In this document: positions 19,300-25,226 of the stretch, in pieces
Numbering within the stretch: the stretch's first letter is position 1
Layout of the letters: each line of letters begins with the position of its first letter
NCBI GenBank assembly: GCA_025062375.1
Contig: JANXAG010000011.1
Location: forward strand, 1-55,089
Direction: 5' to 3'
Origin: Anaerolineae bacterium
Lineage (GTDB): Bacteria; Chloroflexota; Anaerolineae; SpSt-600
Length of the DNA stretch: 55,089 bases
The notes under the pieces: model-generated
Databases searched by the model: none
Seen by the model: the letters and a program-made list of their open reading frames with translations, nothing else
What the model was told of the DNA's origin: nothing
Translations under genes and position numbers: made by a program

Positions 19300-20502
19300 A
19301 TGCCTCCAATATCCATAGCTCCGGGAATTTTTTGGGTAGGCATAAATGATCGCACTACTGATCTCTTTGAAGGCCTCTGGCCTATAGAGAGGGAAGGGGT
19401 CTCCTATAATTACTACATCATTTTGGACGAAAAAAAGGTCCTCATAGACCTGGCCAAGGGCTTCAAAACTGATGAATTTTTCTCCAACATTGCTGAAGTC
19501 ACCAACCCCGCCGAAATTGACTACGTTGTTATAAACCACATGGAACCAGACCACACAGGAACCCTGTATACTTTCCGGCAGGTTGCCCCTAAGGCTACCA
19601 TAATAGTCACCCCTAAGGGAGCTGAACTTCTAAAGAACTTCTTCGGGATCACGGAAAACGTCAAAGTGGTTGAAGATGGCGAACTCCTTACTTTAGGGCA
19701 GCGAACTCTCCGCTTCCTTCATACTCCATTCGTGCACTGGCCTGAGACTATGATGACCTATGAAACGAATTCTCAGATCCTCTTCTCCTGCGACGCCTTC
19801 GGAGGATACGGCGCCCTGAGAGGGGCAATTTTTGAAGACGAATGCACCGACCTGGATTTCTACAAAAAAGAAGCTCTCCGCTACTACGTAACTGTAGTAG
19901 CTACGTTCAGCGGCCCCGTCCTCAGGGCTATAGAGAAACTCAAGGACCTCAAGATTGATATTATCGCCCCTTCTCACGGACTTCTCTGGCGTAAGAACCC
20001 TTCAGTAATAGTGGAACTATACCGCCTCTGGGCAAGTTATGCCACATCTCCCGGTGAACCGGCTGTCACCCTTATTTACGGCTCCATGTACGGCAATACC
20101 GAAAAATTCATGAACGCGGTAGCTCAGGGTGTGTCCCGGGAAGGGGTTCCTGTAGAGATATTTGATGCCGCCCGAGTTCATCCAGCTTATATCCTCCCAT
20201 ACCTGTGGACACGGCAAGGGGTCATAATAGGCGCTCCTACCTACGAAGGAGGCCTCTTCCCCCCAGTTGCCCATGCCCTGGACATAGCCGCCCTCAAACG
20301 AGTAATGAACAAGAAAGCCGCCTACTTTGGAAGCTACGGCTGGAGCGGAGGAGCCCTGAGAAGGCTTAAGGAAATCCTCGAACGCCTCAAATGGGAACTG
20401 GTAGATACTCTGGTGTTCGCAGGCAGGCCAGAGCCTGAAGAACTCAAGAAGGGGGAAGAATTCGGGGCTAAGTTCGCTCGTCTTATAAAAGAAACTCCAT
20501 GA
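19300..20502 (+). CDS. A-type flavodiiron protein (O2/NO reductase)
   Basis: The protein has 400 residues. The N-terminal metallo-beta-lactamase-like domain (about 1-250) carries the diiron ligands: NHMEPDHTG (H-x-E-x-D-H), a His in TPFVHWPET, Asp in FSCDAFGG and His in PSHGLLW. The C-terminal flavodoxin domain (about 255-395) has the FMN motif IYGSMYGNTEKF. No rubredoxin is fused, so the separate upstream rubredoxin is the probable donor. The enzyme reduces O2 to water or NO to N2O in the cytoplasm of anaerobes. The start lacks a clear Shine-Dalgarno site. Its end overlaps the next gene by 4 bp (ATGA). Confidence 0.95.
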   Translation: MPPISIAPGIFWVGINDRTTDLFEGLWPIEREGVSYNYYIILDEKKVLIDLAKGFKTDEFFSNIAEVTNPAEIDYVVINHMEPDHTGTLYTFRQVAPKATIIVTPKGAELLKNFFGITENVKVVEDGELLTLGQRTLRFLHTPFVHWPETMMTYETNSQILFSCDAFGGYGALRGAIFEDECTDLDFYKKEALRYYVTVVATFSGPVLRAIEKLKDLKIDIIAPSHGLLWRKNPSVIVELYRLWASYATSPGEPAVTLIYGSMYGNTEKFMNAVAQGVSREGVPVEIFDAARVHPAYILPYLWTRQGVIIGAPTYEGGLFPPVAHALDIAALKRVMNKKAAYFGSYGWSGGALRRLKEILERLKWELVDTLVFAGRPEPEELKKGEEFGAKFARLIKETP

Positions 20503-21701
20503 AACCCTTACCTCTTAACCTAGTCATCATAGGCAATGGGGTGGCAGGTATAACTGCTGCTTTGGAACTTGCCCGGCGCAAAACGGGAGAGATTGATGTT
20601 TTTACAAAGGAGCCATACCACTATTACTATCGCCCGCGCCTTCCATCTTTTATCGCTGGGGAATTGTCGGAAAAAGAGCTTTTCCCTCATGAGCCATCAT
20701 GGTATGAAAATGCAGGGATAAAAATTCACCTTAGCACTCCCGTAGTTCGCTTGTTCCCCGAGCGTAAAGCTATAGTCACTGCCGATGGGCGGGAATATTC
20801 CTACAGGAAACTTCTCCTGGCAACAGGAAGCCTCCCCTTGCTTCCACCTTTAGAGGGAATAGACAGGGAAGGGGTTTTCACGCTCCGCACCTTGGACGAC
20901 GCCCGGGCTATAAAAAGTTACTCTGAGCAATGTGAGAGAGCAGTAATACTGGGAGGGGGCCTTCTGGGGCTGGAAGCGGCAAGGGCTTTGAGAGTTCGCG
21001 GCCTATCAGTTGTAGTCCTGGAACGAGCTTCCTACCTTTTACCCCGCCAGCTGGATGAAGAAGGAGCACGCGTGTTACAGAAGCTTGTGGAAAACATGGG
21101 TATAAGGGTAGAAGTTTCTGCAGAAGCCAGGGCCATTCTGGGAAATGGGAAAGTGGAAGGCGTGGTGCTGAGTGATGGCCGAAAATTTCAGGCCCAACTG
21201 GTCCTCATAACCATTGGGGTCAAGTGCAATGCCGGGCTGGCCAGGGAAGCCGGCCTTATGGTAGAGGGGGGGATTTTGGTGGACGAGAGGATGGCCACAT
21301 CAGCTCCGGATATATACGCTGCCGGGGATGTGGCTTATTTCCGGGGCCGCTCCTGGGGGATAATCCCTGTGGCCCTGGCCCAGGCTCAGGTAGCTGCTGC
21401 CTCTATGGCCGGTGAGGAAGCTACCTACAGAGAGGTTGTCCCTTCCAATTCCCTGAAGATAATGGATATAGAAGTTACCTCAGCAGGTGAAGTGAACCTT
21501 CCGGAAAATCAAGGGATTCACCTGCGTTTTTCCAGACCTGAGGCTGGAATTTACAGGAAAATCGTCCTGCGCGACGGAACAGCCGTAGGCTGTGTCTCTA
21601 TAGGTGACAGGAAATGGGGGGCCATGGTGGAAAAGCTGATAAAGGATAAAACCACCATGGCCTTTGAAGAAGCCTTAAAACTCTTAGAAGGAGGTGCATA
21701 A
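20499..21701 (+). CDS. NAD(P)H:rubredoxin reductase-type FAD oxidoreductase
   Basis: The 400-residue protein is a two-dinucleotide-binding flavoprotein. The N-terminal FAD motif is IIGNGVAGITAALELARR (residues 9-26). The second glycine motif, for NAD(P)H, is VILGGGLLGLEAARALR. The late FAD motif APDIYAAGDVAYF binds the ribityl chain. There is no redox CxxC, so it belongs to the rubredoxin/NADH oxidase-like class rather than thioredoxin reductases. Its position between the flavodiiron protein (4-bp overlap) and superoxide reductase (TAATG overlap) makes rubredoxin the likely acceptor. Confidence 0.9.
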   Translation: MKPLPLNLVIIGNGVAGITAALELARRKTGEIDVFTKEPYHYYYRPRLPSFIAGELSEKELFPHEPSWYENAGIKIHLSTPVVRLFPERKAIVTADGREYSYRKLLLATGSLPLLPPLEGIDREGVFTLRTLDDARAIKSYSEQCERAVILGGGLLGLEAARALRVRGLSVVVLERASYLLPRQLDEEGARVLQKLVENMGIRVEVSAEARAILGNGKVEGVVLSDGRKFQAQLVLITIGVKCNAGLAREAGLMVEGGILVDERMATSAPDIYAAGDVAYFRGRSWGIIPVALAQAQVAAASMAGEEATYREVVPSNSLKIMDIEVTSAGEVNLPENQGIHLRFSRPEAGIYRKIVLRDGTAVGCVSIGDRKWGAMVEKLIKDKTTMAFEEALKLLEGGA

Positions 21702-22093
21702 TGATAGGGGAACTCTATCAGAAAGCTGACTGGAAAACTGAAAAGCACGTTCCAGTCATTGAAGCTCCCTCGGAGGTCAAGGCGGGTGAGCTCTTCCAGG
21801 TAAAAGTCAGTATAGGCAAAGAAATAGCCCATCCCAACACCACCGAACATCATATCCGTTGGATAAACGTCTATTTCCACCCTGAAGGGGACAAGTATGC
21901 TTACGATGTAGGCTACTTCGCCTTTAACGCCCATGGTGAATCGGTGCAGGGGCCCAATACAGGTCCCGTTTACACCCACCACGAAGTGGTCTTCTGGATG
22001 AAAGTCCAGAAATCGGGCACTCTATATGCGACTTCTTACTGCAACATTCACGGCCTCTGGGAGTATGTTCACCCCATCAAAGTGGTGGAATAA
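21701..22093 (+). CDS. Superoxide reductase (1Fe, neelaredoxin type)
   Basis: The protein has 130 residues and lacks the N-terminal desulforedoxin domain, so it is the one-iron class. The iron-site ligands are visible: KHVPVIE near residue 16, the HH pair in NTTEHHIRW, Cys and His in SYCNIHGLW, and the Glu/Lys-containing EKHVP loop. The enzyme reduces superoxide to hydrogen peroxide without releasing O2, using electrons from rubredoxin. The start overlaps the reductase stop. The product peroxide could be handled by the rubrerythrin three genes downstream, counting this gene's own position as the first. Confidence 0.94.
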   Translation: MIGELYQKADWKTEKHVPVIEAPSEVKAGELFQVKVSIGKEIAHPNTTEHHIRWINVYFHPEGDKYAYDVGYFAFNAHGESVQGPNTGPVYTHHEVVFWMKVQKSGTLYATSYCNIHGLWEYVHPIKVVE

Positions 22094-22711: not shown

Positions 22712-23215
22712 ATGGGTGAAAGGACGAGGCAGAACCTCTATACAGCCTTTGTAGGAGAGGCCAAAGCCTACTTCCGACTTCTTGCCTACGCTGAAAAGGC
22801 AGAGGAAGAGGGCTACCCTCAAATAGCGGCTCTTTTCAGAGCGGTAGCCGAGGCCGAACGGGTTCACGCCACCCGCAATTTAAAGCTTCTGGGCGAAGTA
22901 GTAATAAAAGATACCGAAACAAACCTAAAAGCCTCTTTTGAAAGGGAAGAAAGGGCAAGCGGGGTATTTTACCCCCAATTCATAAAAGAGGCCGAAGAGG
23001 AGGGTGATCGCCAGGCGGCTTTATCCTTCAGCCATGCACGGGATGTGGAGGAAGAGCACGCTTCCCTTTACAAAAGAGCCCTTCAGCATCTTGTAGCAGA
23101 AACAGCTCCTAGATATTATGTTTGCCAGATCTGCGGCTATATAGCTGAAAACGAATTACCGGAGCGTTGCCCCGTATGCAATGCTTCCGCAGATAAATTC
23201 AAAGAAATCCTCTGA
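22712..23215 (+). CDS. Rubrerythrin
   Basis: The 167-residue protein has a four-helix ferritin-like domain (about 1-128) with ExxH motifs (AEAERVHATRN and VEEEHASLYK). A C-terminal rubredoxin-like domain (about 132-167) has CQICGY and CPVCNA. The enzyme reduces hydrogen peroxide to water in anaerobes, taking electrons via rubredoxin. The protein is shorter than classical rubrerythrins (about 190 residues) but complete. No encapsulin targeting tail is present. It lies 3 bp after the ferritin-like gene and 12 bp before the half-ferritin gene. Confidence 0.94.
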   Translation: MGERTRQNLYTAFVGEAKAYFRLLAYAEKAEEEGYPQIAALFRAVAEAERVHATRNLKLLGEVVIKDTETNLKASFEREERASGVFYPQFIKEAEEEGDRQAALSFSHARDVEEEHASLYKRALQHLVAETAPRYYVCQICGYIAENELPERCPVCNASADKFKEIL

Positions 23216-23227
23216 AGGAGGTCAAAA

Positions 23228-23428
23228 ATGGACTGGCTCAATTTCCTTAAAGTGATGATGATTGAAGAAATGGCGGCTCGTGACAAATATCAGCTGGCAA
23301 TGGAACTTGCGGATGACCCTCAGATAAAGGCCATCTTTGAAAAGCTGCGGGACGAAGAAGCTTTCCATGCCAATTTCTTAGAGGGGGAATACAACCGCCT
23401 GCAGCAGATTTTGAAGAAGGGGGAGTAA
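23228..23428 (+). CDS. 66-residue two-helix ferritin-like (half-ferritin) protein
   Basis: The protein is only 66 residues, one helical hairpin. Helix 1 carries Glu residues in MMIEEMAARDKYQ, and helix 2 carries ExxH in RDEEAFHANFLE. That is half the ligand set of a diiron ferritin domain, so two copies would have to pair to form a site, as known for encapsulated ferritin (EncFtn). It is shorter than EncFtn and has no targeting peptide (C-terminus LQQILKKGE). It has a GAAGGAGG ribosome site and lies 3 bp before the encapsulin cargo gene. The coding call rests on motif, spacing and context. Confidence 0.8.
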   Translation: MDWLNFLKVMMIEEMAARDKYQLAMELADDPQIKAIFEKLRDEEAFHANFLEGEYNRLQQILKKGE

Positions 23429-23431
23429 ATT

Positions 23432-24334
23432 ATGGCTAATTTAGTAGAAATGCTTAAAGCTGCCGCAAGGGATGAGCATGCTGCCATTATTCAGTACCTC
23501 CTGCATGCTTACGCCATGGGCGAAGGGGAGGAAGCCTGCGAAATCGAAGGCATCGCAAGAGAGGAAATGCGCCATTTCTGGATACTTTCTCGCTGGATCG
23601 TCAAACTTCAGGGCATACCAACCATAGAGCGGGGCTTCACGGATCTGGGGGGAGAAACCAAAGCTGAATGGATGGATCGGGATGTCCAGGCGGAAGACCG
23701 CGCCATAGCCATGTATCGGTCTTACATTGCCGTCATAGAGGATCCCGCCCTTCGTTCTGATCTGGAGAGGATCCTGGCAGATGAAGAGCGCCATCGCGAG
23801 ATGTTCTTGGAGTTCGGGGAGAAATTCCGGCGAGAACAGGCATTAGCTCCCGAGGAGGCCCCCGCGCCCTCTGTCCCTTCGCCTTTCATTCTGGAAGCAC
23901 TGGACTGGGGAATACGCCACGAGTACGCCGCCATCCTGCAATATCTTTTCCATTCCTTTTTGACCAAAGACGAAGAGGTCTCCCGCCAGCTGGAGCTTCA
24001 AGCCATCAATGAGATGCAACATTTAGGATGGCTTGCGGAAAAGCTCGCCGCCTTAGGCAAACCGATACCGATCGAACATCATCCTGTGGACCTCTCCCGG
24101 GAAGTTCGGCAAATGCTGGAGGCTGATATAGACTTGGAAGCGGGAACAGCCCACAAGTACGAGATTTTCCTGGAGAAAGTGGAGGACCCCTCGGTCAAGG
24201 AACTCCTGAAAACTTTAAGGACCCACGAATTATACCATGAAAACCTTTTCAAGAGGCTTCTGGAAAGGATAAGGCATTTAAGCCCTTCCGGGTGGACTGT
24301 AGGAAGCCTTATAAAATCTGAGAAGGAGGGTTAA
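23432..24334 (+). CDS. Tandem two-domain ferritin-like encapsulin cargo protein
   Basis: The 300-residue protein contains two complete ferritin-like domains. Domain 1 (about 1-135) has Glu15, E45xxH48, Glu88 and E118xxH121. Domain 2 (about 152-285) has Glu164, E194xxH197, Glu236 and E266xxH269. A Pro/Ala/Glu-rich linker (about 138-151) joins them. The C-terminus carries TVGSLIK (289-295) after a flexible Ser/Pro/Gly segment, matching the known encapsulin cargo-loading peptide type (LTVGSL/LGIGSL). The encapsulin shell gene starts 2 bp after the stop. The protein is therefore predicted to sit inside the shell, oxidising and mineralising iron or consuming peroxide. Confidence 0.9.
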   Translation: MANLVEMLKAAARDEHAAIIQYLLHAYAMGEGEEACEIEGIAREEMRHFWILSRWIVKLQGIPTIERGFTDLGGETKAEWMDRDVQAEDRAIAMYRSYIAVIEDPALRSDLERILADEERHREMFLEFGEKFRREQALAPEEAPAPSVPSPFILEALDWGIRHEYAAILQYLFHSFLTKDEEVSRQLELQAINEMQHLGWLAEKLAALGKPIPIEHHPVDLSREVRQMLEADIDLEAGTAHKYEIFLEKVEDPSVKELLKTLRTHELYHENLFKRLLERIRHLSPSGWTVGSLIKSEKEG

Positions 24335-24336
24335 AG

Positions 24337-25140
24337 ATGGAACACATCCTGATGCGAAGTGCAGCACCTCTGAGCCCGGCCCAGTGGGAAATAATTGACA
24401 ACACCGTTAAAGAAATAGCCAGCCAGATTCTGGTGGGAAGGCGTTTCCTTAAGCTTTGTGGTCCCCTTGGGTTCGGGGTTTACACTGTACCCCTTTACAG
24501 CTATAAGGAGGAAGAGAAAACTATAAGAGCCGAATGCGTAAGGGCTCTTCCCCTGACGGAGCTTTCCTGGGATTTCGTCATTACAGCTCGGGACTTGGAC
24601 GCTTTTGAGAGAGGGCTTCCCTTTGACGTGGGGCCTGTGGCAGGGGCGGCTGCTATCTGCGCCATGAAGGAAGATGAGCTTATCTTCAAAGGGTGTGAGG
24701 AAGCAGGTCTTGAAGGCCTTCTGAACGCTTCTGGCCGCCAGATTCTACCATTGGGCGATTGGGAAAAGGAAGGGCAAGCCCTGGCTGATATTTCCAAAGC
24801 AGTGGCCAAACTGACTTCCTCTGGATTCTATGGTCCCTACGCAGCGGTAATCAACCCATCTTCTTACACTCTGCTCCAGAGGGTGGTGGGGAAGCAAGGC
24901 ATTTTAGAGGTGGAATTGGTGAAGAAAGTGGTTGAAGCAGGCCTTTTCTACACGCCCGCTGTTCCAGAAAATAGGGTGGTAGTCCTTTCTCCCAGGCCCA
25001 TCTACGTGGACCTGGCTGTTGGACAGGATATGGTAACAGCATATCTGGAAAGCTCCAACATGGAACACAAGTTCCGGGTCTTTGAGACCATCGCTTTAAG
25101 GATAAAGCAAGCTGGTGCTATCTGCGTTCTGGAGTCTTAA
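24337..25140 (+). CDS. Family 1 encapsulin shell protein (HK97 fold)
   Basis: The 267-residue length matches known encapsulins of about 265. Recognisable family positions are the N-terminal LMRSAAPLSPAQWEIIDNTV, GRRFLKLCGPLGFGVYTVPL, DAFERGLPFDVGPV, the conserved DELIFKGCEEAGLEGLLN, and GPYAAVINPSSYTLL with GQDMVTAYLE near the C-terminus. Such proteins self-assemble into icosahedral protein compartments. At the place of the flavin-binding Trp of the Thermotoga shell (ITARDLDAFERG here) there is an Arg, so flavin may not bind. It is preceded directly by its ferritin-like cargo gene. There are no phage genes nearby, so it is not a prophage capsid. Confidence 0.93.
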   Translation: MEHILMRSAAPLSPAQWEIIDNTVKEIASQILVGRRFLKLCGPLGFGVYTVPLYSYKEEEKTIRAECVRALPLTELSWDFVITARDLDAFERGLPFDVGPVAGAAAICAMKEDELIFKGCEEAGLEGLLNASGRQILPLGDWEKEGQALADISKAVAKLTSSGFYGPYAAVINPSSYTLLQRVVGKQGILEVELVKKVVEAGLFYTPAVPENRVVVLSPRPIYVDLAVGQDMVTAYLESSNMEHKFRVFETIALRIKQAGAICVLES

Positions 25141-25152
25141 AAAATCTTAAAG

Positions 25153-25226
25153 TCGGGGCGGCCGGATTTGAACCGGCGACCACTTGAACCCCATTCAAGT
25201 GCGCTCCCAGGCTGCGCCACGCCCCG
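25153..25226 (-). tRNA. tRNA-Pro (anticodon GGG)
   Basis: The 74-nt cloverleaf reads on the minus strand. The acceptor stem is CGGGGCG (from 25226) with CGCCCCG and discriminator A. The D-arm region is GGCGCAGCCTGGGAGCGC. The anticodon stem CTTGA/TCAAG encloses loop ATGGGGT (anticodon GGG). The T-arm is GCCGGTTCAAATCCGGC. CCA is not encoded. A T-run follows (GATTTTTT, 25140-25147). It is convergent with the encapsulin gene, with 12 bp between. Confidence 0.95.

Follow-up and report, generated by a model that had tools for sequence, protein, structure and literature searches.

An encapsulin-like shell gene directly downstream of a gene for a 300-residue ferritin-like protein raises two questions about this Anaerolineae locus: whether the ferritin is packaged as cargo of the shell, and why a protein that may itself store iron should be packaged at all. 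The locus was analysed within the whole 55,089-nucleotide stretch of DNA (the window). An encapsulin with a tandem two-domain ferritin cargo had been proposed by a sequence-only reading, and the two open reading frames (300 and 267 amino acids, 2 bp between the cargo stop and the shell start) were found where that reading had placed them. The identity of both partners is supported by profile matches, by fold and by a strict linkage of targeting peptide and shell among relatives. The features are collected in Table 1.

Table 1. Operon genes and cargo features, in window positions.
Feature	Position	Strand	Basis or detail
Flavodiiron protein, FprA-type O2/NO reductase	19300..20502	+	PF19583 ODP, PF00258 flavodoxin
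NADH:rubredoxin-type flavoprotein reductase	20499..21701	+	PF07992, PF18267
Superoxide reductase, desulfoferrodoxin iron-binding domain alone	21701..22093	+	PF01880 127 bits, TIGR00332 114 bits
Double ferritin-like/rubrerythrin-type protein, 185 aa	22151..22708	+	PF02915, PF13668
Rubrerythrin, rubredoxin-like domain at C-terminus	22712..23215	+	PF02915, PF21349
Half-ferritin, 66 aa, EncFtn-like, without targeting peptide	23228..23428	+	ORF; TIGR04535 and EncB_fam below cut-off
Cargo, tandem bacterioferritin-like protein with C-terminal targeting peptide, 300 aa	23432..24334	+	
N-terminal four-helix bundle of cargo, residues 2–138	23435..23845	+	helices 2–29, 33–58, 77–101, 105–138; site E15/E45/H48/E88/E118/H121; possible haem Met46
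C-terminal four-helix bundle of cargo, residues 151–282	23882..24277	+	helices 151–177, 181–207, 225–249, 253–282; site E164/E194/H197/E236/E266/H269; possible haem Met195
Targeting peptide WTVGSLIK, residues 288–295	24293..24316	+	cf. M. xanthus PLTVGSLRRGG
Family 1 encapsulin shell protein, 267 aa	24337..25140	+	NF041155, PF04454, EncA likeness

The shell gene product is a family 1 encapsulin of the HK97-type fold. It matches the NCBIfam profile encap_f1 (NF041155) at 250 bits (cut-off 100) and PF04454 at 227 bits (cut-off 24.3), and the nearest characterized shell by both sequence (about 40% identity) and fold (TM 0.88–0.91) is Myxococcus xanthus EncA. Four related shells carry a cysteine-rich insertion near the E-loop (L160:4412-5299, PACLHSSAGDCCGGKDDECCDKEGECCNEGDECCGGDCDA; L163:5254-6126, minus strand; L042:3934-4743; L079:5976-6800) that could serve in metal binding or disulfide formation; the window shell has no such insertion.

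Cargo and shell close a run of eight same-strand genes that begins with the flavodiiron protein gene, with spacings from a 4 bp overlap to 57 bp, and this run is an O2-defence operon. Scans for promoters and terminators gave results near chance level. The shell gene is followed directly by a tRNA-Pro (GGG) gene in the opposite orientation (25152–25226, −). Among relatives of the cargo, and with truncated contigs counted as absences, a superoxide reductase gene is found nearby in 12 of 21 shell loci versus 15 of 72 shell-less loci, and a flavodiiron protein gene in five of 21 versus 29 of 72. Both genes thus occur in both groups, and the oxygen-defence setting accompanies the tandem ferritin, shell or no shell.

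When the two halves of the cargo were scanned separately, as the sequence-only reading had advised, each matched Pfam Ferritin (PF00210) at 30.9 and 40.5 bits, respectively (cut-off 24.5), and Foldseek structure searches matched single bundles to bacterioferritins and to the Candidatus Methanoperedens mini-bacterioferritin (PDB entry 9qq4) with TM scores of about 0.75–0.87 by target length. Over 132 residues the halves align with each other at 28% identity (E = 3e-14), so that the protein is an internal duplication or fusion. The classical bacterioferritin profile TIGR00754 gave 38.8 bits, below its cut-off of 125.55. A model of the cargo was calculated with AlphaFold2 from 57 aligned sequences (pLDDT 93, pTM 0.87); its tail is flexible (pLDDT about 60), and neither half has a fifth (E) helix in this model. 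By sequence, the closest solved relative, and the sole full-length one, is PDB entry 9viw ('Bacterioferritin', 306 aa; E = 1e-36), followed by bacterioferritins and 9qq4. The C-terminus of 9viw was read by searching with its matched part joined to TVGSLKKE, the alignment running through NRFTIGGLRE; with this targeting-peptide-like, TIGGL-type tail, 9viw also looks like an encapsulin cargo. A literature search found no paper behind the entry.

All of the diiron ligands that had been assigned to two complete domains are present at the residue numbers given, and they are nearly invariant among the relatives (92–93 of 93 proteins for the first site and 91–93 of 93 for the second). Glu194 is missing in 9viw, where a serine leaves the second site incomplete, and in L115. 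The class to which the cargo belongs is already in print. Two-bundle 'bacterioferritin' cargos with targeting peptides were described by Andreas & Giessen in 2021, with Chloroflexi among the hosts (PMC8346489), and were named Bfr-like FLP (formerly Flp + Flp) in a 2024 review (PMC11202242). The novelty initially suggested for a duplicated full-domain cargo was therefore overstated. The window cargo resembles this class in its two four-helix bundles, its C-terminal peptide and the adjoining family 1 shell, and its first-bundle ferroxidase site is complete; the second site, which is variable in the class, is complete as well. According to the review, generally only the first diiron site of such cargos is conserved (PMC11202242), whereas the Chloroflexota members, as judged from their aligned ligands, keep both sites nearly throughout.

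Methionines 46 and 195 fall in the alignment column of Met50, in helix B of the Methanoperedens protein (Mper-mBfr), and are invariant (93 of 93). Met50 is the ligand of a coprohaem located between the subunits of the dimer (PMC13168243), and one chain of the two-bundle class resembles a bacterioferritin dimer (PMC11202242), so that a haem held within the chain between Met46 and Met195 is a natural prediction. The methionines were rejected as proof of haem because 31 of 33 single-domain relatives share a methionine in this column. Escherichia coli FtnA has an E-M-x-H motif and is not known to bind haem. Other features of the mini-bacterioferritin recur in part. Its A–B loop glycine (Gly34 in alignment numbering) corresponds to G32 of the cargo (85 of 93), in the N-terminal half only. 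The column of its dimer-cation His29 (alignment numbering) holds Ala26 (90 of 93), with an invariant H25 one residue earlier, and its dimer-cation residues are not conserved (W50 and R54 in the window cargo). With the methionine and glycine present and the dimer histidine absent, the cargo is like a fused mini-bacterioferritin rather than being one. The Methanoperedens protein (9qq4; PMC13168243) also lacks the E-helix, but it is a single-domain, unencapsulated 12-mer, and its dimer His/Glu pair has no counterpart in the same columns of the cargo.

The loading peptide recognized in the cargo is present, as WTVGSLIK, but does not end the protein as had been stated: five residues, SEKEG, follow it. 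The M. xanthus targeting peptide is PLTVGSLRRGG, with a VxxxxR motif (PMC7925596), and WTVGSLIK likewise places a valine and a basic residue five apart. Peptide and shell thus agree, both being of the M. xanthus type, although the M. xanthus cargos EncB/C are half-ferritins (EncFtn). The spacer between His269 and the peptide is unusually short, at 19 residues compared with 23–44 in relatives. The genome of the window was searched at the DNA level with a degenerate pattern coding for Thr-[Val/Ile/Met]-Gly-[Ser/Thr-like]-[Leu/Phe], which gave 44 matches. The one in the cargo is more than chance: no other ends a recognizable cargo-type protein, and of the rest just one falls within 20 residues of where a long gene-like frame stops, in a sequence that resembles a membrane helix. 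None of the other genes of the operon has a recognizable targeting peptide.

Relatives were collected by a scan of species genomes that gave 80 loci, nearly all from Chloroflexota with a few labelled Deltaproteobacteria, and by adding further genomes of the phylum and of nearer relatives; 93 distinct two-domain proteins were left after removal of duplicates. A shell gene is present in the locus of 21 of these. In every one of the 21 the C-terminus bears a peptide: TVGSL, TIGSL, TVGTL, TIGTL, SVGKL, PIGSL or, in L163, the variant SVGNL, which the search pattern does not cover and which was recognized by eye. The 72 relatives without a nearby shell gene all lack such a peptide. Loss of the peptide beside an encapsulin, which would have counted against the proposal, was thus seen in no relative. 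After the last histidine there are 7–28 residues in the shell-less relatives and 31–51 in the shell group. The closest relatives by identity, L002 (65%) and L166/G401 (62–63%), have neither peptide nor shell. The joint state of peptide and shell changed at least three times by well supported branches and six times on the best tree, a quick one in which some long branches are unsure and gain is not told apart from loss. A sign test on independent pairs did not reach significance, the pairs being too few. Cargo and shell distances are correlated (Mantel r = 0.86, p = 0.0001), as is expected from the sequences of a pair inherited together.

Genome-wide searches with NF041155 found a shell in every tailed genome tested and in none of eight tail-less genomes (G401, G405, G440, G011, G210, G048, G020 and G007). 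Three of the latter (G048, G020 and G007) are single contigs at least 99% complete, and the idea that shells had been overlooked through short contigs was rejected. Locus L088, with a peptide and no shell within 1.5 kb, was likewise rejected as an exception, since a longer stretch of it, L112, has the shell downstream; there (L112:8387-14396) about 4.2 kb containing a flavodiiron-type gene parts the shell from a cargo that keeps its peptide. A second, partial tandem ferritin without the peptide stands at the start of contig 43 (L167) of G401, a genome of the same family. Of 400 genomes drawn evenly across the phylum, 15 encode a family 1 shell, five of them together with the tandem cargo (G000, G019, G136, G137 and G382).

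The half-ferritin remarked on beside the cargo is a real open reading frame and probably shares its transcript. It carries E14, E44 and H47, with EncFtn-like spacing, and scores 32.4 bits with TIGR04535 (cut-off 125) and 28 bits with EncB_fam, both below cut-off. Four other genomes in the class encode relatives of it with 65–77% identity. It was rejected as a co-cargo, and its membership of the compartment is unsupported, because its reading frame has no targeting peptide and it stands beside the shell in only one of the 21 shell loci. The tandem cargo was also rejected as the sole ferritin of its genome, which has a further candidate for iron storage: a second, single-domain ferritin-like protein (146 aa, with a lysine in the haem-methionine column) is encoded on contig 18 (29144–29548; L117:1480-1920). 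That gene adjoins a cysteine desulfurase-like gene and one for a putative ferredoxin:thioredoxin reductase–rubredoxin fusion.

The reading that we prefer, and hold to be very probable, is a family 1 encapsulin with a dedicated tandem bacterioferritin-like cargo, both sites of which would oxidize Fe(II) for storage. In each chain a short linker would connect two four-helix bundles, both with a complete ferroxidase site, so that one chain would correspond to one bacterioferritin dimer. WTVGSLIK would dock into the interior pocket of the shell, the cargo being loaded as the shell assembles. Iron that enters as Fe(II) would be oxidized at both sites by O2 or H2O2 and, if homology is a guide, kept as mineral within the small cage of the cargo itself, in the shell lumen or in both, removing Fenton iron and oxidant together. 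As partners the cargo would have the O2 reductase, the superoxide reductase and rubrerythrin, whose genes lie immediately upstream.

The E-helix found in 24-mers is lacking from both halves, which favours a small assembly like that of mini-bacterioferritin, presumably a cage of 12 bundles (six chains). Appreciable weight, short of an even chance, is also given to fused chains that form no cage and act as small oligomers feeding iron to the shell lumen, like EncFtn and IMEF. Those proteins are likewise ferroxidase cargos of family 1 shells, in the form of open oligomers (PMC8346489), with a half-ferritin or other architecture rather than tandem full domains. The 9viw entry contains four chains, the contacts needed for a cage could be obstructed by the fused chain and its C-terminal tail, and the missing dimer-cation residues point the same way; against this, most relatives have no shell and would have no other container, and the fold may hold mineral itself. 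A bacterioferritin cage of 24 bundles (12 chains) inside the shell is unlikely. It is favoured by the general likeness to bacterioferritins and by the review, in which a related model was superposed on the cage of the E. coli protein (PMC11202242), but the E-helix that builds the fourfold axis of 24-mers is lacking, the A–B loop glycine is typical of 12-mers and the nearest single-domain structure is a 12-mer. Peroxidase or catalase-like roles of the cargo are possible, and suit an operon of enzymes acting on O2, superoxide and peroxide; that it is mainly a peroxide-consuming diiron or dimanganese enzyme with little storage is improbable, since its weak profile and fold likeness to manganese catalase (the weak fold matches include KatB) stands against much stronger Ferritin profile matches and, in each half, the bacterioferritin pattern E/ExxH/E/ExxH. 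Very improbably, the tandem ferritin stands alone and the adjoining shell has another true cargo, such as the half-ferritin or rubrerythrin, a reading favoured by a fold that works without a shell in most relatives and by several ferritin-like genes in the operon, but opposed by the perfect peptide–shell association and by the lack of any other recognizable peptide in the operon or, in the genome-wide motif search, of another cargo-type C-terminus.

More broadly, and less probably than not, the dedicated cargo may belong to a Chloroflexota family of tandem mini-bacterioferritins: self-contained dimers with one haem or coprohaem between the halves and two working ferroxidase sites, which repeatedly passed between free-standing and packaged forms by joint gain or loss of the encapsulin gene and the peptide. 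The packaged form would then be small haem-ferritin spheres within a larger shell. A search (thin on subscription journals) found no paper combining encapsulin, Chloroflexota and ferritin, and the papers on the class (PMC8346489, PMC11202242) are silent on a large shell-less, peptide-less sister group. What is new here is this free-standing group, a strict pairing of peptide with shell that has switched repeatedly, the intact second site, which qualifies the generalization that the second diiron site is degenerate, and the predictions for haem and assembly.

Both class papers leave open the reason for caging an iron-storing ferritin. The Chloroflexota set provides a natural comparison, tandem ferritins of about 45–65% identity with and without shell and peptide, and the coupling of the two across the 93 relatives makes the purpose of packaging testable: in such nearly equivalent proteins, one could measure how encapsulation affects the loading and release of iron and the handling of peroxide.
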